Under the pieces are notes generated by a model. That model ran no database searches, was not told where the DNA came from, and saw only the letters and a program-made list of their open reading frames with translations. A stretch of DNA of 64,000 nt from Siphonodentalium dalli (Eukaryota > Mollusca > Scaphopoda > Gadilida > Siphonodentaliidae), in assembly GCA_032622095.1 (NCBI GenBank), contig CP136065.1:246511474-246575473 (forward strand), in the 5' to 3' direction. Both the position numbers and the translations under genes were made by a program. Of the stretch, positions 9,801-54,320 are shown piece by piece (the stretch's first letter is position 1; every line of letters starts with the position of its first letter).

Positions 9801-12800
9801 TAATAAACAAATGATGAAAAATTGTTGGCCAATGCATTCTCTTATATATGCGAGGCGACCTATGGTCGACTCGCATATATAAGAGAATGCATTTGCACAG
9901 GTATATGGGTTGATACAAAAATTGGACCTGGCACTGAAAGGGTTGGTTAACCCATTGTTTGGTCATGAATGAAAAAATTGTTAAAGTGATGTGAAACACT
10001 CCGGTAGGGTGATCAAATAGAAACGGAGAATAATCTTGCTCAAAGTAGTTATTTTTACTAATATTATATCCAAATTGACAACACACCCCGTCATTCTAGT
10101 ATATTAATTAAATGCAGTGACTCTTGTGTGTGAATTCGTTTTCGTTAGTTTATCGCAAATAATTGCGTCCTAAATCGGGAAGTAAATATTTACAATTAAG
10201 CATAGTTCAGACAATGTTTTCTATGGAGTGGTACATGTACGGTCGATTTGCTTGAGAGTTTCGATGATGTTACTAAAATGCTCCAATTGGCATAGTGATT
10301 GAATACTAACTTATCAGATTCAACCACCTGAACAAGTCCATAATATGTCTTTAACCCAATTTTTTGGGCCAAGAACCCCTAGAGAACTTGAGCAACTCAT
10401 TCAAAGTATATTCCACAATGCTACCAATAATAGATAATTAGTAACTTGAAGATTTGTTTAAACGAATCCAGTACTTGATGATGTCCATACATCACGAGTA
10501 GTGCAGGTGAGAATGTTTGGCCGGCTTAGTCACGTTAACCCATCTTCGATGACATGACCTTTATTTTGTGTAACTCGTAGGCGAACGGACCTTTGTTCAC
10601 CTGAAATTTTCTGCACTGTAGTGGATCCTTTTCCACTTTTCCAATTTTTCTTCTATCCATACATTATTGTGGAAGACATTGTGAAATGAAGGTCAAGTAA
10701 GTAGGTAAAGAGTTAAATGAGTTTGTAATGATGATCTGCTTGTTGTAATGTCGGTAACGTTTAGCCAAAGGCATTGATTGTATTTGTGAAATCATCAAAT
10801 ATTTTAGCCTTGGTTGGCTTTTTTTACTGGTAGAGTGGAATATTTAATGGAAAACACCACAGTATGTTGATGTTGATGTGTTAATATTTTCAAATGTGTT
10901 CTTAACCCTTCCATGACTGGAGCTTCCTGATTTTTTTGCGAAAACCTTGTGTCAATGCATTCTCTTATATATGCGAGGCTCCCATAAGTCTAACAATATT
11001 TACCTTGACCTTGTAAACCAGTCCATTCTCTTATATATGCAATACTGCCTATATGAGACTCGCATATGTAAGAGAATGCACTGGCACATGATCTTTAATG
11101 CTGCACCAGCATAGGTCCTGTCATGAAAGGGTTAAACATTAACACCAAATATTCTCCTGATGAATCATGAATCAAGTATGTTTATTATTTTTTTTTAAGA
11201 TTTTCAACCATGTACATGTATATTAATGTTAAGTCTTTGAGATTTCAAATGAACCATTATGTTGAGCCACTCCTCTTCGTACGTTTTGCTGAGTTATCTT
11301 TCGTGGGTTATGGTATGGTATGAAATGACCTTCGCCACTTCAGCCTTCATATTTTCAATCGTGCAATAGCAAAGGGGCTTATGGAACACATTCATTGATT
11401 TACAGCTCTGGAAGTTGCAGAATACTTGACACTACAGATATTCTCAAAATAAAATGTCCCCTCCAATGAGGTTTTCAAATATTTAATACTCAGTGAGAAC
11501 ATCAACATAACAAATTGATCAAGCCTTGAAATAGTATGTCTGTCATTTGCAGAATAAGGTCCCCAGAAGGTGAAATTAGAGACGCTACCCCACACAGCAG
11601 GGTAGCATCACTAAATTCACCCTCTGTGGACCTCATTCTGTTTAGGCCTCATCTTCTGGGAGGTGTCTACATTGTATAGTCTCAAATTAACATTGTTGCT
11701 ATTACTTTTTCCCTTCTGTTCAGTTTCAATATACTCTAATTTGCCAAAGATAAAATGCATAATTTAGGTGACTAGTGGGTGAAATCGCCAATTTCAACTG
11801 GGAAACTGAAATCTTATCCTAGGTCTCCCATAGCAGTTGAGTCCTCAGCAGAATGAGGTCCCCAGAGGGTGAATTTGGTGATGCCAGCCCACCATGCGAG
11901 ATAGCATCACTAAATTCACCCTTTGGTGACCTCATTCTGCAAATGACAGACACACTATTTCAAGACTTGGCATTGATGGAGAGCTTAAAACACGTTAAAG
12001 GGACTCAGACAATTTTGAGAATGTGAAATGTTTAGGCATATATTTTTATGTTATTATTTTTTATATTCTATAGGTCCGGGAGAACGTGGAACTTCAGTCA
12101 TTGTGCCACCTGATGAGGAGAAGCCGAAACAGGAACTCTACAAAGTGAACGGTTTCAATGCATACGGCAGTGATAAGATCTCCCTGAATCGCTCACTCAA
12201 AGATATCAGGAACCCTTTGTAAGTCTATATAAAGTGAACCCTTCAATGCATACGCCAGCGATATGATCTCGCTCACTCACTCAAAGATATCAGGAACCCT
12301 CTGTAAGTCTATATAAAGTGAACCCTTCAATGCATACGGCAGCGATAAGATCTCCCTGAATCGCTCACTCAAAGATATCAGGAACCCTCTGTACTCTAGT
12401 GATCCGAATAATAGTAGGGGTCGGAATAATAGTAGGGGGTGGAAAATTTGCCAAATTTTAATAATAGTAGGGGTCGGAATAATAGTAGGGGGTGGAAATG
12501 TCAATGAAAATAGAGATCATTGAAGAACACTGATTTAATTATCAAACAAAAACTTATAATAAACACTCCTCGACCCAGCACGGACAACGTCTGGTTCTTG
12601 CAGAACCTTTTCAATGTCATTGATTTGAACGGAGAACACTGCGTCAACACTTTTATACGAATTTTCAGTTCCAGCACAAGGCTCGAAAAATCTAACCAAC
12701 TACTCAATTGTGTTCTAATTAAAGAAACTTTCAAACGTAAGCCCCAGATGTTGATTAACTTCTTAGTTAATAACGCGTCAATTGTAAAAAAAAAACACAG

Positions 12801-15800
12801 ACATAACGCGTTGTCACCTTTGTTCGCCTCACTGAACGATAAACAATACCCGCAGAGGGGGGTCTGTCTATTGCAATAGGGTCGCACGAATTGCAAAATA
12901 GCGACACGTGCGAGGATGGAGTTACTTCCCATGGATCAAATCATTGATTATATTGCGATGCCAGACGGTTGCGCGAATTCTTTGAACGTATTCCGCTTCA
13001 TGCATGCCATTTGATTAAAAACAACGAATAATGCGATCATTCATGGAGTATGGGTGATCAAAATTAAATAATCGTAGGGGCTTGAATAAGAATCGTAGGG
13101 GGTGGATTTTTTCTCAAAAATTAACAATCGTACGGGTACGGTTATTCGGATCACTAGAGTAAGTCAATATAAAGTGAACCCTTCGATGCATACGCCATCG
13201 ATGTGATCTCACTCGCTCACTCAAAGATATCAAAAACCCTCTGTAAGTCTATATAAAGTGAACCCTTCAATGCATACGCCAGCGATATGATCTCGCTCGC
13301 TCACTCAAAGATATCAGGAACCATCTTTAAGTCTATATAAAGTACAACCCTTCAATGAATACGCCAGCGATATGATCTCGCTCACTCACTCAAAGATATC
13401 AGGAACCCTCTGTAAGTCTATATAAAGTGCACCCTTCAATGCATACGCCAGCGATATTATCTCGCTCGCTCACTCAAAGATATCAGGAACCCTCTGTAAG
13501 TCTATATAAAGTGAACCCTTCAATGAATACGCCAGCGATATGATCTCGCTCGCTCACTCAAAGATATCAGAAACCCTCTGTAAGTCTGTATAAAGTGAAC
13601 CCTTTCAATGCGTACACCAGATGATGATATTTCACTCGTTTGGTTACTCTAAGATGTAAGAAATGCACCATCACAAGGTTTTTCAAAGAAATATAAAATG
13701 GTGAAATTAACATTTTCCTTTTTTTTTGGTTCCATTCTGCCCATGTTTCAAATGGGGGTATTCCAGCACCCGTGGTTAAACCTCCTATAAATTATGTTGG
13801 GATTTGATACATACATTTGATCGTAGGGTCCTGCAAATATATTCCATATTTGATTCATTATTCGATTCAGTCCCTTTATTTGATTAAAATTCAGTTAGAA
13901 AATATTGGTTTGAAAATGAACTAACATCCCAAAGGTGTTCTTCATCCATCTCTTTTGACCATTTGATGATGGGAACAGGCTGGTGCAGCATTAAAGACCA
14001 TGTGCCAGTGCATGGGTGACTCGCATATATAAGAGAATGGATGCACTACTCTGCAGTAAGATCTCTACCAACGTTGAGCTAAATAACCAACTTTTTTTGC
14101 TTTTGGGATTGAGAAAAATGATAAATATCCACATTGACACTCTAACTGTTAACTATAGACTAGCCTTCTGGAGAAAATTGAAAAAATAAATTGAGGCAGG
14201 CAAGACAATCTCAGCCAGGCAGGGTATCGGAAACAAAGAGGTTTTTTTTGTGCCTTAGTCATCTCCAATAAATTTCAACAAATATTCCAAATCAACCAAG
14301 ATAAAATTAAACCTGTGAAACAAGGCAATTAAAGAAGATTTCTTGCTTTGTCACTTCTTTGAATATATTTGAATCAACATTTTTTTCACAAACATTAATG
14401 TGTATTAGAGCAGGATTAATTGTTTGCACGAACTTAACCCTTTACCCAACAAAACGGCCAAAAACGCCCAAATAAAGCTTCAACAGCCTAAAATATCTTC
14501 CGTCTGTCTCAATAACACCATACAAATATGGATATCATTGGAACCGGTTCATTGACCACATTGTGATGGTTACAGTTATGCCCTGTGCCAATGCATTCTC
14601 TTATATATGCGAGTCGACCATAGGTAGTCTCGCATATATAAGAGAATGTATTGGCCTAAAAAAAATGTTTTTTTAACACTTTTTACCATTTTTTCTTACA
14701 TTCTTTAACAATTTTATAATTTTTTCTTACATTTATAATATTTTTATACATTCTTTGACAATTTTATCATTTTTAATATGTGTTAAGCCAATGCATTCTC
14801 TTATATATGCGAGGTGACCTATGGTCGACTCGCATATATAAGAGAATGCATTGGCACAGGGCCGTTCTGTTGGGTAAAGGGTTAATTGATGTCACCCACA
14901 ATATCTAACAATGTCATATACAAACCATCGAAATAATAATTATTATACATTTTGTTTTTTTTCACTTGTTTTTTTAGATGCAAAGATAAGAAATATTACA
15001 ATAGACTACCTAATGCGAGTGTTATAGTTCCATTCCACAATGAACACTGGACGACTCTACTCAGGACTGCATCCAGCGTTGTTAACAGATCTCCCAAAAA
15101 CCTCCTACACGAAGTTATCTTAGCAGATGATTTCAGCACAAAAGGTATGCATTAACCATTTACCCAACAGAAGGGCCCTGTGCCAATGCATTATCTTATA
15201 TATGCGAGTCGACCATAGGTCGCCTCGCATATATAAGAGAATGCATTGGCTTAACACATTAAAAATTATAAAATTGTTAAAGAATGTAAGAAAAAATGGT
15301 AAAAAGTGTTAAAAAAAGTTTTTTTTTTAGGCCAATGCATTCTCTTATATATGCGAGGCGACCTATGGTCGACTCGCATATATAAGAGAATGCATTGGCA
15401 CAGGGCATAACTGTAACTATCACAATGTGGTCAATGAGCCGGTTCCAATGATATCCATATTTGTATGGTTCTATTGAGACAGACCGAAGATATTTTAGGC
15501 TGTTGAAGCTTTATTTGGCCGGTTTTGGCCGGTTTGTTGGGTAAAGGGTTAATGTAGTACTTATAAACATTGCGATATCGTAGATTGTTTTCTATAATGA
15601 ATTGATTTATTGATTGATTGAGGGCTACACGAAGTTATCTTAGCAGATGATTTCAGCACAAAAGGTATGCATTAAATCAGAATTGTATCCTTACATAAAA
15701 TCAAATAAAAGCAGACAATTAATTTGTCATTTATTCATGACTGTTTATTACTGAATATTAAAGTGATATGAAACACTCCGGTAGGGTGATCAAATAGAAA

Positions 15801-18800
15801 TTGAGAATAATCTTGCTCAAAGTAGTTATTTTTTACGAATATTAATCCAAATTGACAATACATATCGTCATGCTTATGTAGTAATTAAATGCAATGACTC
15901 TCGATGGCGAAATCATTCGTGTTAGTTTGTCGCTGATATTTGCGTCCCGAATTGATATGTAAATATTGACAGTTGAGCGTAGTTCAGACGATGTTTTCTA
16001 GGAAGTGGTATGGTCGATTTCTCTGAAATTTTCGACGATGTTAGTTAAATGCTGCATTCCCCATGTTGACATAGAGCCTGGGTACTAACTTATCAATTTC
16101 ACGCACCCGAATAAGTCCATAATATGTCTTTAAACATATGAACAAGGACGCTGGAAGCACCAAAGGGCAAGGGGGGCAAACCAGTCAGGAGGGCACTTTT
16201 CATATACCCACTGGACTCTAATGGGCCAGGGCAAGGGGGCAAATGCCCCTGCATTCCCCCCTTCCCCGGCATCCCTGCATATGAAAATAGGAAATGTTAT
16301 CACTGGTTTCAGAACCACGTCGATCTCTGCTTATTCGAAGTTGGTTCGCTTAATTTTAACACAGGATGCTCCGGAATTGAGAAATTTTTTAATGAAAATT
16401 GGATAAAAAATCAGAAGGTGTAAAATTCCTGAGTTAATTCAAAATGCTGAATATGTTCGGAAACAGAACAAACACGTGCTCATGTATCTATTTTATACAA
16501 TCGAATGAGGGGTAAAGTATACTCGTAGTATGGGATCATAACTTCTGATGATGGGTGACATATATTTAACAGAATTCGGTTGTATTTGGTTGTCTTAAAT
16601 CGGTCCCTTCGAATATGACTCTTTATTTATCGGTCCACATTTGTATATGAATTCCGTCCTATAACTGGATGCAATTCATAGGAATGTTAACAATTATCAT
16701 CATGTGCCGACTGGTAGCATGTTGCTGTCAGTCAAACATTATTTACAAGAACAGCAACGTCCCATCTTTTTTTCGGTTTTAAGGTTTAATTGTGCCTTGG
16801 TTGAGTTGGAATATTTAACAAACTGGTTTGAGAACTCAAAATAGTGCTTTTGTAATGTTAAACTTGGAACTCAGGGTGAATCGGCCCTGGAATTATATAA
16901 TCACATCCCTGGTCTTGCAAATAAATACAAATAAAAACACCCGCCCTCATTGATTCAGAAAGAAATATTGTCTGAAACTAAAATTATCTTTTTTGTTTGG
17001 TCTGAGGGATAACTGTGTGGAGAAGATTAAAAATGTCACTATCAGTAACTGTAGTTTTTAGTAAGGTACAAAATTTAAAAGAATGTGTCTGGGAAAACTT
17101 AATTTTGGAGCTAATTAGTGGGTATTTGCCAACGAATATTTGCAATTGACTGTGCTGAAAAATACTTCATGTTTATCCCTACTCTTATTGAGAATTACAA
17201 AATAATTATCACTTTTGAACCCACTAACCAGCTTAACTGCTTTTACTACTTATAATAGTTCTTACTTTTTTATATTGTGTGAGTTTTTAGCAGTTTCAAT
17301 TGTGACATTCTTTTTCAGAATTTTTGAAAAAGGAGTTGGAGGATTACTTGAAAGAGCACTTCTCTAATGTCAAGGTCGTAAGAGCAGAAAAACGAGAAGG
17401 ACTCATTAGAACTCGGTTACTTGGAGCGAAGCACGCGACGGGAGAAGTCCTTATATTCCTGGACGCACATTGTGAAGCTAACACTAATTGGCTCCCACCA
17501 CTCTTAGGTGAGACTCAATTCTATTTCATGTTTCATAAATCCAGCTCCCATCACTCTCAGGTGAGACTCAGTTCTATTTCATGTTTCATAAATCCAGCTC
17601 CCATCACTCTCAGGTGAGACTGAATTCTATTTCATGTTTCATAAATCCAGCTCCCATCACTCTCAGGTGAGACTCAATTCTATTTCATGTTTCATAAATC
17701 CAGCTCCCATCACTCTCAGGTGAGACTCAATTCTATTTCATGTTTCATAAATCCAGCTCCCATCACTCTCAGGTGAGACTCAATTCTATTTCATGTTTCA
17801 TAAATCCAGCTCCCATCACTCTCAGGTGAGACTGAATTCTATTTCATGTTTCATAAATCCAGCTCCCATCACTCTCAGGTGAGACTGAATTCTATTTCAT
17901 GTTTCATAAATCCAGCTCCCATCACTCTCAGGTGAGACTCAATTCTATTTCATGTTTCATAAATCCAGCTCCCATCACTCTCAGGTGAGACTCAATTCTA
18001 TTTCATGTTTCATAAATCCAGCTCCCATCACTCTCAGGTGAGACTGAATTCTATTTCATGTTTCATAAATCCAGCTCCCATCACTCTCAGGTGAGACTGA
18101 ATTCTATTTCATGTTTCATAAATCCAGCTCCCATCACTCTCAGGTGAGACTGAATTCTATTTCATGTTTCATAAATCCAGCTCCCATCACTCTCAGGTGA
18201 GACTGAATTCTATTTCATGTTTCATAAATCCAGCTCCCATCACTCTCAGGTGAGACTCAATTCTATTTCATGTTCCGTAAATCCAAACTGTTATTAGTTA
18301 TTAGTATCGAAGAACACTTTATCCGTTTCTGTAATGTCAATATTTCAGATTTTATGAAAACTCAGTACCTCGGAATTTTACTAAAAAATGTTTGCAGTTT
18401 CAATTGTGACATTCTTTTTCAGAATTTTAGAAAAAGGAGTCTAATCATCTCATGATTTCAAAATTTATTCTCGTCGTAAAGTCACAAAATGGTTGAAAAT
18501 AACTGTTACCGAGAATATTTTATTAAAAATCTCCCTGACGAACTCCAAAAAAAATTGCAATGCACATGGCAAATCAACAGAGACAAGAGAGAATTCCAAG
18601 AAAGTGAGGGCAGATACTAACAATGCAAACTGTTGTAGAGGGTATAATAAAAGCAGAAATAAATCAGTCTGTCTGCGTCTGTGTATCCAACTTTGTCCAA
18701 ACTTGTATTCCTACATTTTCTTGTCATTTTATATGTTAATACTTGATAGAGATGTTTTCCATCATGGGAACCTGTGCACCAGTATTAACGATTTTTAGTG

Positions 18801-21800
18801 GAGTTATCCCCATTTTTTTTACTTAGAAATGTTTTGCAACATACTTAATTTTATCCGAAATATTATTTCTTCATTTCTTGGTTAATTGTTTTAAAATTTA
18901 GCATAAGATATTTGACCACCTGCCTCTGTCTTACTTTTATAATGAAGTTAACCTGTGCACCTGAATCATTTTACTCCGTTCTAAGAAATATAATTCTCAT
19001 CATTGATACACATAATTATTGCCTTATTCTGAAAGATATCGAAGTTGACATCGCTAAAAGCCATGTGTTTGCTTCTGCCTAGCTAGTTAAGTTGCTATAT
19101 GTTGCTATCCCAATTTATACTGATCATGTAAACCAGATATTAGCTGGCAAAAGCAGGGGTGGGGTCATTGTAATTTGTAATTGACTGTAATTAATTACTT
19201 TTTCTCAAATAGTTGAGAGTAATTTGTAATTGGACCATTTCTCAATTACAAGTAATTGAAAGTAATTAATTACTTTGACAAATAGCATGTAATTCGATTA
19301 CTTTTTCAATTACATTCAAAGAGGACATAATAAACTTTTGTACATTTATTGGTGAGGTTTCATCATGCAGTTGTTCATCAAAATATTAAAAAGTATTTGT
19401 AATTGTAATTTATTACATTGGATAAGTAATTGACACATCCCTGGCTGGGCAAAAGTTGATTTCCTCATTCTCAGTTTCAAATAGTTCTTAATGTATGTAA
19501 GTATACTGTTAATTTTCAGATCCAATTGCTCAGAACCATAAGACTGTTGTATGTCCATTTATTGATGTCATCGATTATGAGACCTTCGAGTTGCGTGGAC
19601 AAGATGAAGGTGCCAGGGGTTCGTTCGATTGGGAGTTCTTCTACAAGCGTTTACCTCTCACCAAAGAGGATCTTAAACATCCAGCTGAACCGTTCAAGTA
19701 AGACTGCAGAATTATAAATATACAAGCCTTGAAATAGGGTGTCTGTCATTTGCAGAATGAGGTCCCCAGAGGGTGAAATTAGTGATGCTATCCCGCATAG
19801 TGGGCTAGCATCACCAAATTCACCCTCTGGGGACCTCATTCTGCTTACACCTCAGCAGAATGAGGTTCCCAGAGGGTGAATTTGGTGATGCTAGCCCACT
19901 ATGCGGGGTAGCATCACTAAATTCACCCTCTGGGGACCTCATTCTGCAAATGACACACCCTATTTCAAGGCTTGTAAATATATAGTACCCAGATGCAGCA
20001 AGTCTGAGTTTAGTGTGCCTGTCATTTGCAGAATGAGGTCCCCAGAGGGTAAATTTTTATGCTATCCCGCATAGTGGGCTAGCATCACTAAATTCACCCT
20101 CAGGGTACCTCATTCTGCTAAGGCCTCATCTTCTCTGGACAGTTTCTTTATTATCAAATTTCTATAAAACTTCTTCACATAGATTCTATTTCTGTTTTAG
20201 TTAGTTTCTCTATATCCCCAAATTGGCCGACGACACATTGCATAATCGAGGTTCCCAATGGGTGTACATCACAATATTCACCATTTGGGAACTTCAATCT
20301 AAGTCTATGTCTCCCATAGCAGATGAGGCCATGCAGAATGAGGTTCCAGGAGAGTAAATTTGGTGATGCTAGCCCGCTATGCGGGATAGCGTTACTAAAT
20401 TCACCATCTGGGGACTTCATTCTGCAAATGACAGGCACACTAAACTCAGACTTGAGCTGTAGGGCATACTCTTGTGTGCCAAATAGAAGTTTAGGTTAAG
20501 GGCAGAATATAAGTACATGGTGGAAATTTATGAAAAAATAAATAGTGCCGGGCGGAATAGAAGTACCACATGAAAGTGTATTATCAATTCTCACACAAGG
20601 CAATAATTATTTTCATGATTTTAGTATTAAACTATAACATGGTGTTAAGGACGAAGAAAATTAAATGTCTGGTTGGATTTACAAGTCAGAAAAAATAAGG
20701 TTTGTGAATTGGCTTGAAATTTAATATTGTTAACTAATGAGGGAGTCGTTTCTATGCTTGTGATTAGGTGGGGGGAGTCATATTGTATTGAGCTAACATA
20801 TTATAATCAACCAACATGAAAAATGTCTTATAATGTATTTATATATAAAACAGAAATCATGATCATTTGAATGTTATAGTTGTTTATTTTTACCTTTATG
20901 TTCTTGATTTTGAAAGATTCCTGTTATAAACAGGGATGCAATGTTTTTTTTTTGGAGGGATCTTGGAACCCTCGTCGTTTCATTTTAATGTAATATATAT
21001 CTGATTTTGTATCATGTTATAATCAACCCACATGTAAAATGTCTTGTAATGTATTACTAGTAATATAACAAACAGAAATCATGATCATTTTAATGTAATA
21101 TATATCTGATTTTATAGGAGTCCTGTGATGGCCGGAGGATTGTTCGCCATTCATCGGGATTGGTTCTGGGACCTCGGAGGTTACGATCCTGGCCTTGACA
21201 TCTGGGGTGGAGAACAATATGAACTGTCATTCAAGGTGAGTTTGCAGGTTTTGTTTGAATGAGATGAAGTAATACGTACTTAAGAGGGTCACAAAGACTC
21301 ATATTGCCTGCAAAAGATTCAAATAATCTGAAGCACTTACTTATTTTGTGTATGTACAAGTGTAGTGCACCTTTATACTCTCTATGAGGGCTAATCACGG
21401 TCAATTATTTAAAGCCCTGTCATATGATAAATGCAAGCCTTGAAATAGTGTGCCTGTCATTTGCAGAATGAGGTCCCCAGAGGGTGAATTTAGTGATGCT
21501 ACCACGCATAGCGGGCTAACATCACCAAATTCACCCTCTGGGGACCTCATTCTGCTTACATCTCAGCAGAATGAGGTCTCCAGAGGGTGAATTTGGTGAT
21601 GCTAGCCCGCTATGCAGGGTAGCATCACTAAATTCACCCTCTGGGGACCTCATTCTGCAAATGACAGGCACACTATTTCAAGGCTTGGATAAATGATTCA
21701 TGTGAATCCGACAAATTAGAAGACATCAGGTGCAATGGGGACCTTACTTCCTTTGGAAATGTTCAGATAATAAGTTCAACAAGCACCCATAAGTCATTTG

Positions 21801-24800
21801 TTGAAATTATTATCTGAACATTTCACACCAATGAATATGAATCATTCTGCTCTTGTATTATCTGTTTTTATGTGTGTCGTCTGCTTTTGTTACCTGAACA
21901 CCCTCCATATGAATAATAGACCATTTCAATGTATACTTTTATAACTGATGGGAGAATCTATTCAGTATATAAAGGATTAATGAACCCAAGCCTTAGTTTA
22001 GTGTACCTGTCATTTGAAGAATGAGGTCCCCCAGAGGGTGAATTTGGTGACGCCATCCCGCATCGCAGGCTAGCATCATCAAATTCACCCTCTGGGGACC
22101 TCATTCTGTATAACCTCATCTGCTATGGGAGACAGACTCAGATTGAAGTTCCCAAATAGTGAATATTGTGATGTACACCCATTGGGAAACTCGATTATGC
22201 AATTTGATAATAAAGAAACTGTCCAGAGAAGATGAGGCCTTAGCAGAATGAGGTCCTCAGAGAGTGAATTTAGTGAATTCACCCTCTGGGGACCTCATTC
22301 TGAACATGACAGGCACACTATACTTAGGCTTGAATGTACCATGATATTTACCTGACCTTTGACCTTTTTATTTCAGCTCTGGCAGTGTGGCGGAATGATG
22401 GTAGATTCACCATGCTCAAGAGTGGGACATATCTACAGAAAATTTGCTCCGTTCCCAAATCCTGGTATTGGAGATTTTGTTGGCAAGGTAACTGAACTCA
22501 AACTAACATATAAAATTACCTCAACCGACTGTAATCCAAGTTTTACAACATACTGTTTAGTAAAGCTTGTCAATCAATTGTAAACCCAGTATTACAATAC
22601 ACTGTTTAGGAAAGCTTGTCATATTGTTGTCCATTTTATACGTCGGTTTTTTAAAAACTTTTTTGGTTTCCAGATGATCACTTTAGATAGTCTCAACTGA
22701 ATGGAATGAAATTTGGTATGTGGGTTTACTAACACAAAATATCAAGGTCAGATTCAACCCAGATCACATTATATCACATTATATCACATTATGTCACATA
22801 TCACATTATATCTTCACATTATCACATTATGTCACATATCACATTATATCTTCACATTATCACATTATGTCACATATCACATTATATCACATTATCACAT
22901 CATATCACATTATATCTTCACATTATCACATTATGTCACATATCACATTATATCACATTATCACATCATATCACATAATATCTTCACATTATCACATTAT
23001 GTCACATTAGATCACATTATATAAGGATTAACTGTCATGTGGACTGTTTTTATGGAGATGTAACGGTGAGGTAAGTGGACATAACTTGTGTAAAACCCGA
23101 AGGGTTTTACATACAAGTTATGTCCACTTACCTCACCGTTATATCTCCATAAAAATAGTCCACATGACAGTTAATCCTTATATTTATATACATTTAGCGA
23201 AAAAGCCGCTTTTGTAAATATATTTAAATAGAAAAGTGTATCGTGACAAGATCAGCCCAAAATACCCAATAGCACCCTTGGCAAAAGTTAATAGGAACAA
23301 TTTCTCTTCATGTTGAAACCCGATGATGTATTAAGTCAATCCTGCGCGAGTCAAAATGCGCCCAAAGCATTACGCGTTCGTCTTTCCAAACCTAATGACG
23401 TATCGATGGTGTTATTAGCTTGGTGTTATGAGGCGTTACGCATTCACCGAGAAATAACTGCAACTAGCCACATGGGCGCCGACCAATCAGAATGCTGGAT
23501 TTAGTGATGACAACACTTAGTGTGTAAATATATCACATTATCACATCATATCACATTATATCACATTATATACAACGTTAGGCCTGACCAATTTAATAAC
23601 TTGAATTACGAACGCAGAGAATGAAAACCTGTAGATGCAGGAGGGGGGAAAAAACCAAATACGGGAATATCCACATTTGTTATAGTAAAAGCAAGGAAAC
23701 ATTACTTAAACAGTAAAATAACTTTATGTGGTATGTGATAATAATGTAAATAATAATAATAATACAGTGAATTTAACATTAAAGAAACAAAGAGAGCACA
23801 AAAACTGACATTTGCATCATTTGTATTACAGTCTACGTATTCCTGCACTAGTTCATGATTAATTTAATAGCATACATGTTAAGGATCTCTCATGGCATAT
23901 TTTAAAGTTATAAAGTTCCAAAGCATTAAACATGAAAGCTTGTATTAAACAAGCTATATATTAATGTGTTAAACTTATCAGTGTTGTCATTTTAATAACT
24001 TGAATGTTCTCAGGACATGTTTTCCTGCTGTTAAAACACTCTCCGGTGAGAAACTGAACTGCTTCTCGACAAATAAGTCAATTAGATCGTTGAACAAAGT
24101 ATAGTCATTCCTCATTTTTGTGGAATCAACTTTGTCAGGATAGCATTTTGTGAGTCTGTTGGACATCAGGAAACTAAAAGCATTCCCTTTCTGTTGTATC
24201 TCGAGTTGTGTTACAAAAATAACTATGTATTTCCCTCCGAAATCTGACACAACATGCAGTGGAGTATCGTTTTTGAGTTCATGACCTTCATCTTGAGGAG
24301 ATGTTTTCGAGACGATTCGGTCTATCTTGAAGTTCTCATCGACCTCACTAAATAACACGGACACTGTGTTCTCTAGATCTAGCTTCAATAGTCTCTTTTT
24401 GACAACAGTCCCCGACTTTACGACTTCTACGCTGAAATAACTCATTCATGCCCTCGAGTGTCCATACTAACGAAACCGAAACTTAACGGATGTGAACGAG
24501 TTATCTTTGTTCGAAATGTTTAAAGACCAGGAGCTAGCCGGAAACGGAATGTCGCTCATACTGGAATCCGGAAAATTAAAAATCTCGGCAAACTAAAACG
24601 CAGAAATGGACCGCACTTGTGTACCGAAACCCGGGAAAAAAATTAATTGCGTTTGGAATTTCCGTTTTTTTTTTTTTATTTTCTCGGAAATTGTTATCGG
24701 CGCGTTCGTAATTCAAGTCATTAAATTGGTGTCGCCTTATCTTTATTTTATACCATTTGAAAGAGGAAGTCCAAAACATTGCAATATCAACTTTTCTGGT

Positions 24801-27800
24801 TGAATAAACTGTGAAATAGTTTTTTTTTGTCGTGGTACCGACATGTGTTCTGAGTCATTCTGTGCTTAATTGAAATTTGTAATTTGTAATAATCCGCATT
24901 TGTCTCTCTGTTGGGGAATGTATGGGGACATCAGGGCATCCATGTGTGTGTCCGCCCCATTCCTTGTCCTGACGTTAACTCCAGTTCAAATTATCTGATC
25001 GAAACAAAACTTGGTATGAGAAATAACCATCACATTATTGACCCGCCATATCAAATCCAGTCGGAAGTCGGGATTTTTTTACCCTGTGCCAATGCATTCT
25101 CTTATATATGCGAGTCGACCATAGGTCGCCTCACATATATAAGAGAATGCATTGGCCTAACTAATCATTTTTTTTAAATAAATGTTTCTTACAATTTTTA
25201 GGACATAAAATAAAAAACATCCATTACCCTGCAGGGAGCCCCACACATATATAGAAGCATATAGAAGAGTGTCGTCTGCTCATGTTTGTCTGGGGCTCTG
25301 TATGGGTGAAATTATAAAATTGTTAAAGAAATCAGGCTTTAAAACTTACTTTGAAATATATTATTTTGCAACTGTTCATATTCTAAAGCTATGTCGCTAT
25401 AATATTGTAGAACTACAGAAGAGTGGCAGAGGTGTGGATGGACGAATATGGAGAGTTTCTGTACAAGAGACGGCCTCAGTACCGAAGTATCGACCCCGGG
25501 GATATCTCTGCACAGAAAGCTGTCAGAACGAGGCTTAAGTGTAAATCGTTCAAATGGTTCATCGAAGAGGTGGCTTTTGATCAGAAGGATTACTACCCAC
25601 CAATAGAACCCCCACCTCTGGCGGCCGGTGAAGTGAGTATGGTATAAACAGGGATGTAGTGGTGGGGGAGGTTTATCCAGTAGAACCCCTACCTCTGGTG
25701 GCCAGTGAAGTGAGTATGGTATAAACAGGGATGTAGTGATGTGGGCGTGGGGAGGTTTATACAGTAGAATCCATACCTGGTGGCCGGTGAAGTGAGTATT
25801 ATATAGAAGAACCCCCACCTCTGGTGGGCGGTGAAGTGAGTATGGTATAAACAGGGATGTAATGATGGGGGGGGGGCATGGGGGAGGTTTATACAGTAGA
25901 ACCCCTACCCCCGGTGGTTGTTGATGTGAATATAGCATAAACAGGGATATAGAAAGGGATGTTCAAAGAAATCTATTTTTGACCCTTTTATACTTTTATA
26001 CTAAATACTCATTGACGAGTAGTTACCTTAGGAAATGTTCAGATAATAAGTTCAACAAACGACCATATGTCATAGGTTGTTTTATTGAACTTATTATCTG
26101 AACATTTCCCACAAAAGGATATGAATGATTCTGCACTTGTATTATATTTTCATCATACTGTCATCTGCTAATTTTTTTCTGTACATTCCTCCAAACAAAT
26201 AAATAATATACCTTTCCATTCTATTATAGCTGATGGAAGAATCCATTTAGTATAGGAAGGGTTAATATATAATTTCCTTTCTCATTTGTTCAATTCGAGT
26301 GTGGTAATAATAGTAAAAACATGATCCTATCAGACATTAAAGGTACCCAATCTGATTCGATGGTCCCCATATCATCAGATTCCAACAACAACAACATTTT
26401 TGAAACGCTGCTTCAATTATGAGAATCGAGTAATTGCCCAAAAATAATGGTAACCACAGTCAACTATAGTATAAAATTGCCCAAAACCTGTTATTTATCA
26501 ACATTTTTTCAATGAAATTTTGCCGGTTTATCAAATATCTGACACAAAATCGCTACCTGATTTTAGAGTTATCCATCTTCATCCGCAATTTGGTCCGAGA
26601 CCGTGTTCTCATTGATATCTGATCGATATCTGATCACTCTGAACTTTGATGGGTGGGTTCCTCGACTCAAATCAAAATTTTCAAATTACCCCTGAAGCCA
26701 AGGAAATTGTAATTTGCGAGCGATAATTTGGATTATGCATTTTTAAGGTCTCACTAGCAGCCCTCCAGAAAGGATTAATAGATCTGATATAACAATGACA
26801 TGATTTTGGAGGGCGTTTAGGTGTATTAACGTCCCGACAGAAATGATTAACAGCCCAACAGCTTATAGTCTTGGGCCGTTAACCCTTCGATGACTGGAGC
26901 TTCTTGAAATGTTGCGAAACCCCTGTGCCAATGCATTCTCTTATATATGTGAGTCTCAAATAGTGAGCCTCGCATGTATAAGAGAATGCATTGACCTAAC
27001 AATATTTACATTGATCTTGTAAGTTGTAAGCGAGTAAATTCTATGTGAGGCTTCCTTTGGGAGACTTGCATATATAAGATAATGCACTGGCACAGGATCT
27101 TTATTGCTGCACCAGCACAGCTCCAGTCACGAAAGGGTTAATACGGTGAAGGCCTGTTAATAATTTCTGGATGGCTGTTGATATACCGACAGCATCATAT
27201 TATTACTATTATTACCAAATTCTCTGTTGCTCTGTTCAAACATGAGGGACGTGGTAAGCAATATTTGGAAGCAAACTTTTTTGGAACAACAAACACTTTA
27301 TTGATTTATCCTCTTTTTCATACCAAATGAATCAATTGATGTCACATGACATGTTGAGCATTATCATTGCTTAACCGTTTCATGATGGGAGCTGCGCTGG
27401 TACAGCATTAAAGATCCTGTGCCAGTGCATTCTCTTATATATGCGAGTTTCCCCATAGGGAGACTCGCATATATAAGAGAATGCTCTGGCTTACAAGATC
27501 AAGTTAAATATTGTGAGGCCATTGCATTCTCTTATATATGCGAGGTCCCCTTTGAGCGATTCACATATATGTCAAAGAGAATTCATTGGCACGGGGTTTA
27601 CACAAAAATTCAGGAAGCTCCAGTCATGAAAGGGTTAACTCCCGTAATTTGATGAGAATGAGTAGATTGACACACAGAAGTGACTCATAACCGGCTCCTT
27701 GACCACATTGTGATAGTTACAGTTATACCCTGTGCCAATGCATTCTCTTATATATGCGAGTCGACCATAGGTCGCCTCGCATATATAAGAGAATGCATTG

Positions 27801-30800
27801 GCCTAAAAAAAATCTTTTTAATGTGTTAAGCCAATGCATTCTCTTATATATGCGAGGCGACCTATGGTCGACTCGCATATATAAGAGAAAGTATTGGCAC
27901 AGGGCCCTTCTGTTGGGTAAAGGGTTAAGCCTCTCATTTATTTTTCAGTTCAGAAACAAAGCTGCGAACTTGTGCATGGATACAAGGTTCAAGAAAATGA
28001 ACGAAAGATTCCAGCTTGAACAGTGCATCACAGACGGCAAAGGTGCCAGTGGAGAACAGGTAATTGTGACATAGCCTTATCAGAACCCACTTGTAATGAT
28101 GCTCATGTTTTGTCTGTCGTCTATTTTTTCCCTTCAATATTCTGCTGTTTGATACAATTTACCATGTAGTCCATTCCAAACATAAACAGCAATAAATTTG
28201 ATTTTTCACATCTCTTTTTTTTTTATCCAACAGCACTTATTTTTTTTAAATAATTGAATTCAAATAAAAAGACTTTATAATTATAGCTATATATTACCAT
28301 CTATTACTATTTATTACTATTTATTGCTATGAATTTGAAATTTACTGTTGAACAGGGTCTTTTTTGGCCAGAAAAATTTCTTTTGGTAATTTTTTCAGCC
28401 ATTTCTGAATTTGTATGGCCATATTTTTTATCACAAACTTCGGCCAATTTGAAAAACCAAAATATATAATGATAAAATAAATGAAATAAAAACAAATCAA
28501 AGCATTTCCGGAAAACTGGATCCTGATTTTTCTTTAACATGGAACAATAGTTATCCATCTTAGACTATTCCTGATATGGTAAAATTTAAAGAACATTTTT
28601 GTCTTAAATATGTGCGAAAAATTAAAAAAATTTGGAAAATTATCATGAATTTTTTTTCAGAGTATTTAAAGCCTTTAACTCACTGAGTGCCGACTCTCAT
28701 TCGAATGACATGACAAAAGTACAAGATTACTCATAGTAGGCACTCAACGTGTTAAATCCATATTTTATGTATTTTTGATTTAAACATATTTTTATTAGTA
28801 TATAAATGCATAAATAATACATAACAAATAAGGGATTGGAGGACAAGTTCTTTGAAACTTAGATGGACCTCCGCTCCCTACAGATCATACATGAAACATA
28901 AATATAACAATTTATTTTGGATTTATATCAGGTTTTGGTAGGGCGGGTAGAATATATATATTGTGAGAATAAGATATTACATGGGGTGTTAATTATTATA
29001 AATCAGTGGTGTGGTGGGGTAATAAGTATAATTATACATACCTATGACTAGTATGCCAACTGGCAGCATATATATGTATAAGGTGGGGAAAGCGTTAGTT
29101 GGTGTGTTTGGGGAATGGTAGATAGAAAGGGGTCGTTTGAGTAAGTAACAGAACAGGATATTGGGGCAGCAAGTACATTTATGGTACAGAGTTAAGATTT
29201 TATGTATTTATCAACATATGTTATCCATCCTTCCAAATTATGTTTAAATGAGCCATGTCCATATGAGTGTTCTTACTTTTCATTCTGTAGGAACTTGAGT
29301 TGACATGGCATAAGGATATACGACCAAAGAAAAGGACCATCTGCATTGATGTATCACAGTCTATTATGAAAGCGCCAGTCATACTCTTCAACTGTCACGG
29401 CATGAAAGGAAACCAAAGATTCAAGTATAATCCAGTGAGTATTTCATCTAATAGAGGGTCCCATTCAGGTCCTATGGGTCCAGTCAGGTCCGGGTGGTAA
29501 TTAGTCTGTGATGAAAACACCAGTCATCCTTCAATGTCATGGCATGAAAGGAAACCAAAGATTCAAGTATAATCCAGTGAGTATTTCATCTAATGGAGGG
29601 TCCCATTCAGGTCCTATGGGTCCAGTCAGGTCCGGGTGGTAATTAGTATGTGATGAAAACACCAGTCATCCTTTAACTGTCACGGCATGAAAGGAAAGAT
29701 TCAAGTATAATTCTGTGAGTATCTCATCTGATGGAAGGTCCCATTCAGGTCTGGGTGGGTCCGGGTGGGTCCAGGTGATAATTAGTCTATTATGAAAGCA
29801 CCAGTCATCCTCTTCAACTGTCACAGCATGAAAGGAAACCAAAGATTCAAGTATAATCCTGTGAGTATCTCATCTGATGGAGGGTCCCATTCAGGTCCGG
29901 GTGGGTCCAGGTGGTAATTAGTCTATTATGAAAACACCAGTCATCCTCTTCAACTGTCACCTCATGAAAGGAAACCAATGATTCAAGAATAATTCAATGA
30001 ATATCTCATCTTAGTGTAGAGTCCCATTCAGGTCCGGGTGGGTCCAATCAGGTCCGGGTGGTAATCAGTCTGATGAAGCTCTCATAATTATGTTGATGAA
30101 AGGAAATTAGAGATTAAAATATAATCTGGTGAGTGTCTCATCTTAGTGGAGGGTCCCATTCAGGCGCCGGTGGGTCCGGGTCAGACCTGTGTTATAATAA
30201 GTCCCATGATGAAAGTTCCCGTAATTCTGTTCAGCTGTCATGGCATGAAAGGAAATTAGAGATTCAAATATAATCTTGTGAGTGTCTCGTCTTAGTGGAG
30301 GGTCTGGGTAAAGGGTCCAGGTGGGTCCGGGTCAGATGGTAATTAACCGTGATGAAAGCTCCTGTAATCCTCTTCAAATGTCATGGTATGAAATGAAATC
30401 ATAGATTCAAATAGTATCTAATCTTAATGGAAGGTCTAAGTAGATGGTCCAGGTGGGTCCTCAGGTCCCTGGAGTTTATTCTCAATTTCTTGCCTTACCT
30501 GTACCCTCCATATCAAGCCTTGATATAGTGTGTCTGTCATTTGCAGAATGAGGTCCCCCCCAGAGGGTGAATTTAGTGACACTACCCTGCACAGTGGGCT
30601 AGCATCACTAAGTTCACCCTCTGGGGACCTCATTCTGCTTAGGCCTCATCTTCTAGAAAGTATCTTTAGTCTAAAATTAACATTGTTTTTAGTTCCTTTT
30701 TCCCTTCTGTTCGTGCTGTTTCTATATCCCCTAATTTGCAGAAGATAAAATGCATAATCAAGGTGACTAATTGGGTGAACATCACCAACTTCAACTGGGG

Positions 30801-32347: not shown

Positions 32348-32765
32348 ACTCTCAAACATCGACCACGGTGACGTCTAAACTCTCAAACAATCAGCATTGC
32401 TAAAGAGCAACATCATTACTAATATTTGCAACTGAAGCTGATAGGGGTCAATGTCATAATGATCTAAACATAGATAAATGCCGCATATATTTATGTATAC
32501 ATAAACCCGGCGTGCATTTTTGTATACATATTAAAATAAACCCCACATGTATTTCTGTATGCATAAACCATGCAAGCATTTCTGTACACATAAACCATGC
32601 GTGCATTTCTGTATGCATAAACCATGCACGCATTTCTGTATACATAAACCATGCGTGCATTTCTGTATACATATACCATGCATGTATTTTTGTATACATA
32701 AATCATGCATGTATTTCTGTATACATAAACCCTGTGTGTATTTTTGTATACATAAATAAAACCAA
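32348..32765 (+). other. GALNT 3' untranslated region with 27-bp minisatellite
   Basis: After the stop codon about 140 bases are unique. From about 32485 to 32765 a 27-bp unit built on CATAAACCATGCRTGCATTT repeats about ten times. Two AATAAA signals, at 32535-32540 and 32755-32760, lie at the start and end of the array and are the best poly(A) candidates. Open frames across the array are repeat artefacts. Confidence 0.6.
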
Positions 32766-39874: not shown

Positions 39875-42731
39875 TCAAATATATGAGGAGGCCTTGTCGA
39901 AAATGTCCAGAAAGATAAATTAAATATATGACGAGACACTGTCTAAAAATGTCCAGAAAGATAAATTAAATATATGACGAGACACTGTGTAAAAATGTCC
40001 AGAAAGATAAATTAAATATATGACGAGACACTGTGTAAAAATGTCCAGAAAGATAAATTAAATATATGACGAGACACTGTGTAAAAATGTCCAGAAAGAT
40101 AAATTAAATATATGACGAGACACTGTCTAAAAATGTCCAGAAAGATAAATTAAATATATGACGAGACACTGTCTAAAAATGTCCAGAAAGATAAATTAAA
40201 TATATGACGAGACACTGTCTAAAAATGTCCAGAAAGATAAATTAAATATATGACGAGACACTGTCTAAAAATGTCCAGAAAGATAAATTAAATATATGAC
40301 GAGACACTGTCTAAAAATGTCCAGAAAGATAAATTAAATATATGACGAGACACTGTGTAAAAATGTCCAGAAAGATAAATTAAATATATGACGAGACACT
40401 GTGTAAAAATGTCCAGAAAGATAAATTAAATATATGACGAGACACTGTGTAAAAATGTCCAGAAAGATAAATTAAATATATGACGAGACACTGTCTAAAA
40501 ATGTCCAGAAAGATAAATTAAATATATGACGAGACACTGTCTAAAAATGTCCAGAAAGATAAATTAAATATATGACGAGACACTGTGTAAAAATGTCCAG
40601 AAAGATAAATTAAATATATGACGAGACACTGTCTAAAAATGTCCAGTAAGATACATTAAATATATGACGAGACACTGTCTAAAAATGTCCAGAAAGATAA
40701 ATTAAATATATGACGAGACACTGTCTAAAAATGTCCAGAAAGATAAATTAAATATATGACGAGACACTGTGTAAAAATGTCCAGAAAGATAAATTAAATA
40801 TATGACGAGACACTGTCTAAAAATGTCCAGTAAGATACATTAAATATATGACGAGACACTGTCTAAAAATGTCCAGAAAGATAAATTAAATATATGACGA
40901 GACACTGTCTAAAAATGTCCAGAAAGATAAATTAAATATATGACGAGACACTGTGTAAAAATGTCCCGAAAGATACATTAAATATATGACGAGACACTGT
41001 CTAAAAATGTCCAGAAAGATAAATTAAATATATGACGAGACACTGTCTAAAAATGTCCCGAAAGATACATTAAATATATGACGAGACACTGTCTAAAAAT
41101 GTCCAGAAAGATAAATTAAATATATGACGAGACACTATCTAAAAATGTCCAGAAAGATAAATTAAATATATGACGAGACACTGTGTAAAAATGTCCCGAA
41201 AGATACATTAAATATATGACGAGACACTGTCTAAAAATGTCCAGAAAGATAAATTAAATATATGACGAGACACTGTCTAAAAATGTCCAGAAAGATAAAT
41301 TAAATATATGACGAGACACTGTCTAAAAATGTCCAGAAAGATAAATTAAATATATGACGAGACACTGTGTAAAAATGTCCCGAAAGATACATTAAATATA
41401 TGACGAGACACTGTCTAAAAATGTCCAGAAAGATAAATTAAATATATGACGAGACACTGTCTAAAAATGTCCCGAAAGATAAATTAAATATATGACGAGA
41501 CACTGTCTAAAAATGTCCCGAAAGATAAATTAAATATATGACGAGACACTGTCTAAAAATGTCCCGAAAGATAAATTAAATATATGACGAGACACTGTCT
41601 AAAAATGTCCCGAAAGATAAATTAAATATATGACGAGACACTGTCTAAAAATGTCCCGAAAGATAAATTAAATATATGACGAGACACTGTCTAAAAATGT
41701 CCCGAAAGATAAATTAAATATATGACGAGACACTGTCTAAAAATGTCCAGAAAGATAAATTAAATATATGACGAGACACTGTCTAAAAATGTCCAGAAAG
41801 ATAAATTAAATATATGACGAGACACTGTCTAAAAATGTCCAGAAAGATAAATTAAATATATGACGAGACACTGTCTAAAAATGTCCAGAAAGATACATTA
41901 AATATATGACGAGACACTGTCTGAAAATGTCCCGAAAGATAAATTAAATATATAACGAGACACTGTCTAAAAATGTCCAGAAAGATAAATTAAATATATG
42001 ACGAGACACTGTCTAAAAATGTCCAGAAAGATAAATTAAATATATGACGAGACACTGTCTAAAAATGTCCAGAAAGATAAATTAAATATATGACGAGACA
42101 CTGTCTAAAAATGTCCCGAAAGATAAATTAAATATATGACGAGACACTGTCTAAAAATGTCCAGAAAGATAAATTAAATATATGACGAGACACTGTCTAA
42201 AAATGTCCAGTAAGATAAATTAAATATATGACGAGACACTGTCTAAAAATGTCCAGAAAGATAAATTAAATATATGACGAGACACTGTCTAAAAATGTCC
42301 AGAAAGATAAATTAAATATATGACGAGACACTGTCTAAAAATGTCCAGAAAGATAAATTAAATATATGACGAGACACTGTCTAAAAATGTCCAGAAAGAT
42401 ACATTAAATATATGACGAGACACTGTCTGAAAATGTCCCGAAAGATAAATTAAATATATAACGAGACACTGTCTAAAAATGTCCAGAAAGATAAATTAAA
42501 TATATGACGAGACACTGTCTAAAAATGTCCAGAAAGATAAATTAAATATATGACGAGACACTGTCTAAAAATGTCCAGAAAGATAAATTAAATATATGAC
42601 GAGACACTGTCTAAAAATGTCCCGAAAGATAAATTAAATATATGACGAGACACTGTCTAAAAATGTCCAGAAAGATAAATTAAATATATGACGAGACACT
42701 GTCTAAAAATGTCCCGAAAGATACATTAATG
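39875..42731. repeat. 46-bp minisatellite, about 62 copies
   Basis: Unit built on TATATGACGAGACACTGTCT, then AAAAATGTCCAGAAAGATAAATTAAA split across the repeat. Variants: GTCT/GTGT, CCAG/CCCG, AAATT/ACATT. The rare variant CTGAAAATGT occurs at 41921 and 42427, 506 bases (11 units) apart with matching neighbours. A CCAGTAAGATACATT variant recurs 184 bases (four units) apart near 40641 and 40825. Confidence 0.97.
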
Positions 42732-52337: not shown

Positions 52338-54320
52338 ATGGATAGAGTGAGTCTGAAGAACCCGGTGTGGGATTTGAAGACATTCGGGGACAGAGTTCGG
52401 TATTATAGCTGGGTGACAGACCCCAGACTCAGCCTGATTCCGACCCAGACGCTGTATGGGGCCAAGGACATGTTGGAGCGGTATCGGACTCACACCGAGC
52501 CGCCGGGGACGACGGTGTCACAGGTCCGTCGCGCGCACCAGATGTATCTGTCAGCATTCCACCCAGATTCTGGAGAACTGCAGAACTTCATCGGCAGAAT
52601 GTCATTCCAGGTTAGTTGCTCAAATAAACGTAGGCCCCTACATATTAATAAAATGGCTAATCCACCCCCCCCCCCCGCAACTAGAACTTTGTGGGGGGAA
52701 GCCAAGGGGTATACTGGAAATTGTCTGGAATCAGCTTGTCCGTCCGACCGTCTGTCCATGCCAACGAAATGGGTTTATGCGGTATGAACTTTAGGTGCTA
52801 TTTGAGTTTATGAGCTTAAGCCATTAAGCATTTGTCCCCAATGTCATAGTATAACTGTTGTTTGGGTCTTTAAATCATTCACAACTTTCTAAAAAAAACT
52901 ATCCCCTTCTTTCGACTTAGAAAATATTTTTTTCTATTCACAAATCTTGTATAAAGATTCAAAAACATGAGAAGCTGACCCCATCTGGACGTTGGAAGTC
53001 CGCGGGGTTAATTAGTCCAATGGTTTCGATAATCCGCACGATCATTAGTCCAATGTTTCGATACTATAAGTCCGATATTTCGATAATGCGGTACCCGTTA
53101 GTCCAATGTTTCGATACTCAAGCTATAGTGTTCGGTAATCCGAGCGATCGTTATACATGTATATAGTCCGATTATTTTTTCCCGCACGCTTCGCCCTTCT
53201 TGACCTATAGCCTATTTTGTTTCGTTCTAGGTTCAATCGAGCCTCCGAGGGCCCATTGGTCGGAGATTTCGATAATCCGAGGGCCCATAAGTTTGATGAT
53301 TTGAGTTCAATGACATCGGTTGTTCGATAGTCCGATCGAGGGTTCACTAGTCAGGTGGCCAAGTAATCCATGCATCGGTTTTGGTATTCTATATATAGTT
53401 TTATTCTGTAATCAGCAACGAGCATGTTCGACACCTAGAGGTGGCCGCACGACGCCCACCGACGCAAGAAATAACTCCGCCAAAGTAACAGTATGCAGAA
53501 ATTTCCGCCATATGTGGGCTTTATCGGTAGGCCTATAGGGCTATCGCGATATGCCTTTTTTTCTTCATTATTTTCCCAACGCTTCGCCCTTATTGACCTA
53601 GCCTATTTTGTTTCGTTCTAGGTTCCAGGTGGGATGGTTCTTATCGGTGCTATGGTGACATTCTATCGATCAAATTTAGCCGTGGTGTTTTGGCAGTTCA
53701 TGAATCAGTCGTTCAATGCGTTAGTAAACTACACAAATAGGAATGCTAAGTCTGACGTCACACCAAAGAAGATTGCTGTTGCTTACGTCAGCGCTACGTC
53801 ATGTGCTCTGGTCACAGCTCTTGGTTTAAAGACCGTCCTTTCAAAACGGGCACCTGTTCTTATGCAAAGACTCGTTCCTTATTCGGCGGTGGTCGCGGCC
53901 AATATCGCCAACATCCCGTTAATGAGACAAAGCGAGATTACAGACGGTGTCGCTGTTTATGACGAGAACGGAAACGAGGTGACCACGTCCAAATACGCAG
54001 CCGTTAAAGGAATCACACAAGTAACTATTTCACGGATTTTGATCTGTACACCCGGGATGGTGATCCAACCGATCGCCATGGAGTGGTTAGAGAGGAAACC
54101 ATTCCTCGCGAAGAATAAGTTCTTGACGCCAGTATTACAAGTGCTGTTCTCCGGAGTGCTTTTGTTAGGAATGGTTCCAATAGGGTGCTCGCTATTTCCA
54201 CAAAAATGCTCAATAAGATTTGACGAACTTTCCAAAATGGACAAAGAACAAATGGACCTTGTTAAAGCGAAACTTGGGTCTAACGTGCCAGAGAGATTAT
54301 ATTTCAACAAAGGGTTGTGA
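52338..54320 (+). CDS. SFXN2: Sideroflexin (SFXN2-like), two exons, complete
   Basis: Join 52338-52610 and 53622-54320: 323 residues, the usual family length. Sideroflexins are mitochondrial inner-membrane proteins; SFXN1 and SFXN3 carry serine for one-carbon metabolism, and SFXN2 is linked to iron and heme homeostasis. In the sequence: FHPDSGE with the family HPD at 75-77, GRMSFQ at the exon end, NQSFNALVNYTNRNA (119-133), NIPLMRQ (188-194), ITQVTISRI (222-230), LFPQKC (282-287) and the terminal YFNKGL. Hydrophobic segments lie near 96-115, 145-163 and 260-282. The ATG has A at -3 and G at +4 and an in-frame TAA 18 nt upstream. The intron is phase 0 (CAG/GTTAGT..TTCTAG). Vertebrate sideroflexin genes have many introns, so one intron is unusual and may point to a retrocopy. 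Paralogue choice is by eye. Confidence 0.93.
52640..52790. repeat. Poly-C hairpin repeat in sideroflexin intron
   Basis: C run, GCAACTAGAACTTTG, G run, then GGGTATACTGGAAATTGTC and CAGCTTGTCCGTCCG. It is the inverse of the 46780-46840 repeat. Confidence 0.75.
53005..53345. repeat. Sideroflexin intron: TTAGTCCAATGTTTCGATA repeats and duplicated acceptor
   Basis: TAGTCCAATGTTTCGATA variants recur about five times. At 53187-53232 the block CGCTTCGCCCTTCTTGACC to TTTTGTTTCGTTCTAGGTTC nearly repeats 53580-53626, the genuine polypyrimidine tract and acceptor of exon 2. Confidence 0.88.

Follow-up and report, generated by a model that had tools for sequence, protein, structure and literature searches.

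Copies of splice borders in a GALNT10 gene and a neighbouring sideroflexin gene resemble the mirage minisatellites of amphioxus

Five of the ten GALNT10 donor borders in the window, by which we mean the whole analysed stretch of 64,000 nucleotides, have been copied into the following intron (exons 2, 3, 4, 8, and 10). The copies found in GALNT10 and in a sideroflexin gene are probably minisatellites of the mirage type, that is, duplications at the DNA level that straddle a splice border and are tolerated in introns. The sequence itself shows the copies, their excess at borders in this window, the mosaic and homogenised state of some of them, and the truncation that would follow from decoy use, whereas splicing at the true donors, near-neutrality of the arrays, and the way in which the duplications arose are inferred.

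Results

The GALNT10 gene

The window is animal DNA (GC content 37%, observed/expected CpG ratio 0.70), and its left half carries most of GALNT10 on the plus strand. The exon limits were set by hand and verified by translation:

791–32350, plus strand: GALNT10 gene part, extending leftward beyond the window (spliced translation and alignment to 2d7i)
791–884, 12074–12218, 14978–15144, and 17319–17507, plus strand: exons A, 2, 3, and 4
19520–19697, 21118–21235, 22377–22487, and 25411–25632, plus strand: exons 5, 6, 7, and 8
27949–28059, 29291–29434, and 32177–32350, plus strand: exons 9, 10, and 11, with the stop codon in exon 11

Splicing of the 11 exons in the window gives 549 amino acids before the stop, and residues 16–541 of this product align with polypeptide N-acetylgalactosaminyltransferase 10 (2d7i, which we take to be the human protein; E 2e-197); the gene is animal GALNT10. 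As the hand-placed exons yield an intact conserved protein, it is splicing at the first donor in every array that accounts for this product.

Some further observations concern this gene. A 31-bp tandem duplication (32330–32389) covers the stop codon and the bases after it. About 1 kb upstream of the last exon, a diverged copy of the interior of that exon (31169–31214) encodes 15 residues, reaches an alignment score of 57 as compared to a maximum of 35 in 200 shuffles, and is perhaps a fossil alternative exon. Intron 7 contains an open frame of 152 aa on the minus strand (23987–24445) with no Pfam match, and Rfam and tRNA scans of the window gave no matches.

Copies of donor borders

The copied donor borders and the elements inserted among them are the following:

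12136–13663, plus strand: candidate mirage at the exon 2 donor; unit of ~84 bp, 7 extra copies, 5 intact donors, diverged tail
12394–13159, no strand assigned: inserted element in the exon 2 array, TA-flanked, its inverted ends sharing 18 identical bases (by eye)
15105–15675, plus strand: exon 3 donor duplicate; 1 extra copy with intact donor, 15105–15155 and 15625–15675 being identical at 51 of 51 bases (40 exon and 11 intron bases)
~15156–15548: TTAA-flanked element between the exon 3 copies, member of a palindromic family
17491–18285, plus strand: candidate mirage at the exon 4 donor; unit of 53 bp, 14 extra copies, 14 of 14 donors intact
25601–25952, plus strand: candidate mirage at the exon 8 donor; 4 extra copies, 3 of them intact and spaced 44–82 bp, 1 degenerate
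29358–30468, plus strand: candidate mirage at the exon 10 donor; unit of ~140 bp, 7 extra copies, 5 intact donors

In total, 28 decoys keep an intact donor core. This count leaves out the GTAAGT at 13158, which arises where the inserted element ends and the split exon 2 copy resumes, as well as the degenerate exon 8 copy (GTGAAT). The two exon 2 copies without an intact donor are the one that is split by the inserted element, which sits in its donor, and one in which GT is changed to TT. The exon 3 copy lies 520 bp from its source, with an inserted element in between, and the decoy donors of exon 4 read CAG/GTGAGA, as compared to TAG/GTGAGA at the true site. The initial annotation had described donor-border copies in five of ten GALNT introns and more than 20 intact decoys, both of which held. 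Its statement that the introns after exons A, 5, 6, 7, and 9 lack copies was also borne out, the best local 40-base identity at these donors being 0.50–0.575.

Within the window, the arrays of exons 2, 4, 8, and 10 have no match of at least 40 bases farther than 4 kb away, and inverted matches are likewise absent. They therefore do not belong to one family but are mutually independent, in agreement with the earlier view of unrelated units that arose by separate events in a single gene.

As to the inserted elements, the palindromic family has arms with AATGCATTCTCTTATATATGCGAG and is represented at 15156–15548 and, as judged by eye, at ~14550–14870, 25085–25160, 27735–27920, and 31507–31735. 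Neither its motif nor that of a second element had an exact match in the viral and genome contig collections scanned, and these two motifs and a third one had no match in the literature searched. The largest array in the repeat listing of the window, a 46-bp minisatellite with 62 copies (39877–42729), lies outside both placed genes.

Copies of acceptor borders

Acceptor borders have been copied as well:

18391–18440, plus strand: intron 3/exon 4 acceptor border, copied from 17287–17336; 48 of 50 bases identical (96%), 18 exon bases
52338–54320, plus strand: sideroflexin gene (PF03820) with two exons, 52338–52610 and 53622–54320
53174–53234, plus strand: sideroflexin acceptor border, copied from 53567–53625; ~90% identical, last 4 bases exonic

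The exon 4 acceptor copy is situated downstream of the exon 4 array and 1104 bp downstream of its source, and the sideroflexin copy of ~60 bp lies 393 bp upstream of its source. Since the acceptors of both exon 4 and the neighbouring sideroflexin gene were copied, the common theme is splice borders, neither donors alone nor a single gene, and the original description of a phenomenon restricted to donors had to be given up.

Two repeats abut a border. A 39-bp minisatellite with 16 copies (143–776) ends 14 bp before exon A; its unit contains the acceptor-like TCTCTCAG, and the real exon A acceptor lies outside the array. At 20980–21116, the tail of intron 5 is duplicated, with a copy of 32 bases (31 identical) ending one base before the intron does, at exon 6. 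As neither repeat crosses the border, both were excluded from the count of border-spanning duplications.

A probable course of events

In the mirage-type explanation, source segments of ~50–140 bp that straddle an exon/intron border would be duplicated at the DNA level, and four of the seven duplications would then have expanded to tandem arrays, most likely via unequal exchange or slippage. Such seeding would have happened more than once. Copies inside an intron would leave the first donor, or the last acceptor, of the true exon functional, and it is this retained function that would allow them to persist.

Slippage or template switching, as proposed earlier, is possible as the origin. However, simple slippage fails for the three cases that are not in tandem (exon 3, exon 4 acceptor, and sideroflexin acceptor), which comprise ~50–60 bp and lie 393–1104 bp from their sources; if the insertion at exon 3 is disregarded, the two copies there remain ~123 bp apart, with ~72 bp of unmatched sequence between them. 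Templated repair could make such non-adjacent copies. With respect to the preference for borders, our guess is a mutational bias at the step from exon to intron that is linked to transcription or composition, rather than selection.

A stronger version, which we consider possible but unlikely, is a genome-wide process directed at borders that repeatedly copies donor or acceptor segments of ~50–140 bp into the neighbouring intron, either adjacent to the source or up to ~1 kb away, perhaps guided by nascent RNA or by structures linked to splicing, and that is followed by minisatellite amplification.

Excess of duplications at borders

After dispersed and inverted repeats had been set aside, 24 local direct duplication families remained, which were listed by hand with their reference copies and compared to 23 borders in the permutations. 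Seven of the 24 families span a splice border, which corresponds to 7 of the 11 genic families and involves two genes as well as donor and acceptor sides. Random placement on the collapsed sequence, run with all 24 families and with the 11 genic ones, gave an expectation of 0.6–1.0 (P ≤5e-5). When only the 11 genic families were placed, matched for GC and without any placement wholly within exons, 1.5 were expected (P 9e-5). Over both kinds of placement, the five cases at donors alone compare to 0.3–0.8 expected (P ≤6e-4). With at least 10 bases required on each side, the sideroflexin acceptor copy with its 4 exon bases drops out, and six border-spanning families stand against 0.5–0.8 expected (P ≤6e-5). 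The GC bias of the units is kept as a partial factor; GC-matched placement still gave P ≤6e-4.

It is rather improbable that these cases merely reflect chance in a minisatellite-rich genome, in which arrays start anywhere and those at borders are noticed through the inspection of exons. This explanation can draw on the fact that local direct copies at an identity of 0.75–0.80 exist for 20–24% of all positions; under a laxer positional null based on this fraction, copies at 5 of 10 donors have a P of 0.04–0.06. Against it stands the event-based null, in which each family counts once and all introns and acceptors are included, and which gave P ≤6e-4 in every version run. As an array counts as one origin, we prefer the latter and think that it is the proper one. 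The claim that border duplications exceed chance expectation thus holds against uniform placement (P ≤1e-4) and is only marginal against the positional null, and it refers to a small sample, one window with two genes, which was picked because a reader had noticed the pattern. We rejected the possibility that detection bias is the main cause, i.e., that border copies stay recognisable due to their conserved exon half, because the three single copies are ~90–100% identical to their sources and hence recent.

History of the arrays

One base of exon 2 is missing from all seven of its full copies, and six of them contain CCCTCTG and one CCATCTT at the position of CCCTTTG in the exon. One copy (c_12315) is a mosaic with ends of the array type and a middle part of the exon type. 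The changes common to the copies, together with this mosaic, indicate exchange among the copies and at some point also with the exon. The copies at the 3' extreme look most diverged (all these comparisons by eye). In the one haplotype at hand, the mosaic copy and the homogenisation point to turnover of the repeats.

With exon 10, codons could be compared for four of the seven copies (c4, c5, c7, and c8), c2, c3, and c6 being omitted for indels. The differences between c7 and the exon are 10 synonymous and 4 other, with 2.5 synonymous expected, and those between c8 and the exon are 8 synonymous and 3 other, with 2.0 expected; none of 5000 random trials reached either value. The ratio was 3 synonymous to 1 other for c4 (P 0.016), and c5, with a ratio of 2 to 6, showed no excess of synonymous changes (P 0.44). 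At four synonymous sites, c7 and c8 agree with each other and both deviate from the exon; c4 and c5 match the exon at all four of these sites and c2 at three (by eye). That c7 and c8 carry these synonymous differences and the nearer copies are mostly in the present states of the exon suggests at least two seeding rounds, most simply an early duplication round, then a long period in which the exon underwent silent changes only, and finally a younger round. As the synonymous excess in c7 and c8 appears to go beyond what drift alone would have left in these copies, a past coding use of the two old copies is possible as an alternative.

This aspect touches on another explanation, namely that the copies are relics of tandemly duplicated whole exons, i.e., former alternative exons of which the other parts were lost. 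The mainly synonymous differences of c7 and c8 would fit such an origin, as would the diverged exon 11-like stretch at 31169–31214 and the fact that intron 4 holds copies of both borders of exon 4, acceptor and donor. However, the exon 4 acceptor copy holds just 18 exon bases, the donor units contain just the tails of exons, and there is no aligned copy with both borders, which makes whole-exon relics very unlikely. The mirage-type explanation accommodates two rounds of seeding at exon 10.

Consequences of decoy use

Translation would end prematurely with every one of the 28 intact decoys, if used. The stop would be located 1–63 nt past the normal exon end with the decoys of exons 2, 3, 8, and 10, and 107–239 nt past it with those of exon 4. 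As every decoy leads to premature termination, the full-length protein requires splicing at the first donor in every case. Decoys whose use truncates the protein are a poor fit to back-up donors and agree with the view that they are near-neutral passengers.

Selection that retains spare donors, either as extra U1 binding sites or as back-ups near weak true sites, is a very unlikely explanation. Donor scores calculated with a rough matrix do show that the five weakest of the ten donors include four that are affected (5.5, 7.0, 8.0, and 8.1 for exons 2, 10, 3, and 8), and the exon 4 decoys score 10.8 as compared to 9.2 for the real site. However, exon 5, which is unaffected, likewise has a weak donor (7.7) and the affected exon 4 does not, 14 of the 28 truncating decoys lead to a stop less than 70 nt from the normal exon end, and the acceptor copies are left unexplained. 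Moreover, the donor has been lost in two of the seven exon 2 copies and in two of the seven exon 10 copies, and this loss, together with the truncation by all decoys, speaks against the buffering of donors that had been among the initial candidates. An assembly artefact is unlikely, as distinct variants among the copies and the inserted element within the exon 2 array argue against it.

Discussion

Minisatellites that span a splice border are reportedly known since the amphioxus Adh paper, which is said to be the original mirage report. The initial annotation knew of no named process of this kind, and this has to be corrected: in the relevant passages of two amphioxus papers, border-spanning minisatellites are named "mirages" (PMC3087553, PMC3902484). 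The genes mentioned there are Adh3, the globins BflGb6 and BflGb9, PGBD5, and troponin C (PMC3087553, PMC3902484), the latter two having been added by the PGBD5 paper (PMC3902484), and the passages on globins cite two more amphioxus papers, one on a retinol dehydrogenase and one on presenilin (PMC3087553). According to the same passages, the published mirages vary in length between haplotypes, RT-PCR suggested undisturbed splicing, and the mechanism is termed unclear (PMC3087553). The cases in these excerpts are reported gene by gene (PMC3087553, PMC3902484). An open-literature search had no genome-wide mirage study among the matches listed.

If the host of the present gene lies outside the cephalochordates, the host range of mirages would be extended. 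The five donor cases in one gene, the acceptor copies in two genes, and the event-based excess can be turned into a testable statement on where tandem duplications start. Duplications at borders also bear on the lengthening of introns and on the origin of new introns.

Measured against the published cases, the unit spans the border of an otherwise normal gene at seven borders in two genes, and tandem minisatellite-like arrays are found at four of the seven (exons 2, 4, 8, and 10), the other three being distant single copies. The likeness to mirages, as far as the published excerpts describe them, comprises units of tens to ~160 bp over a donor or acceptor border, turnover of the repeats, and preserved protein homology. 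The differences are that a single gene is affected at five donors and one acceptor, and that in three of the seven cases the copy lies apart from its source. GALNT10 is an unusually dense new instance of the already described mirages.

Two other systems are related. Intron gain by tandem duplication (the Rogers model and the potato RdRp case), in its summarised form, has in common with our case that a tandem duplication multiplies splice signals; however, in GALNT10 existing introns between conserved exons were lengthened, and no new intron is needed. Internal tandem repeats at exon–intron boundaries of human duplicated genes are likewise border minisatellites and, in the published summaries, are able to alter splicing. 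According to these summaries, the human repeats vary between recent paralogues and many of them are retained in transcripts, whereas the GALNT10 case was read from DNA alone.
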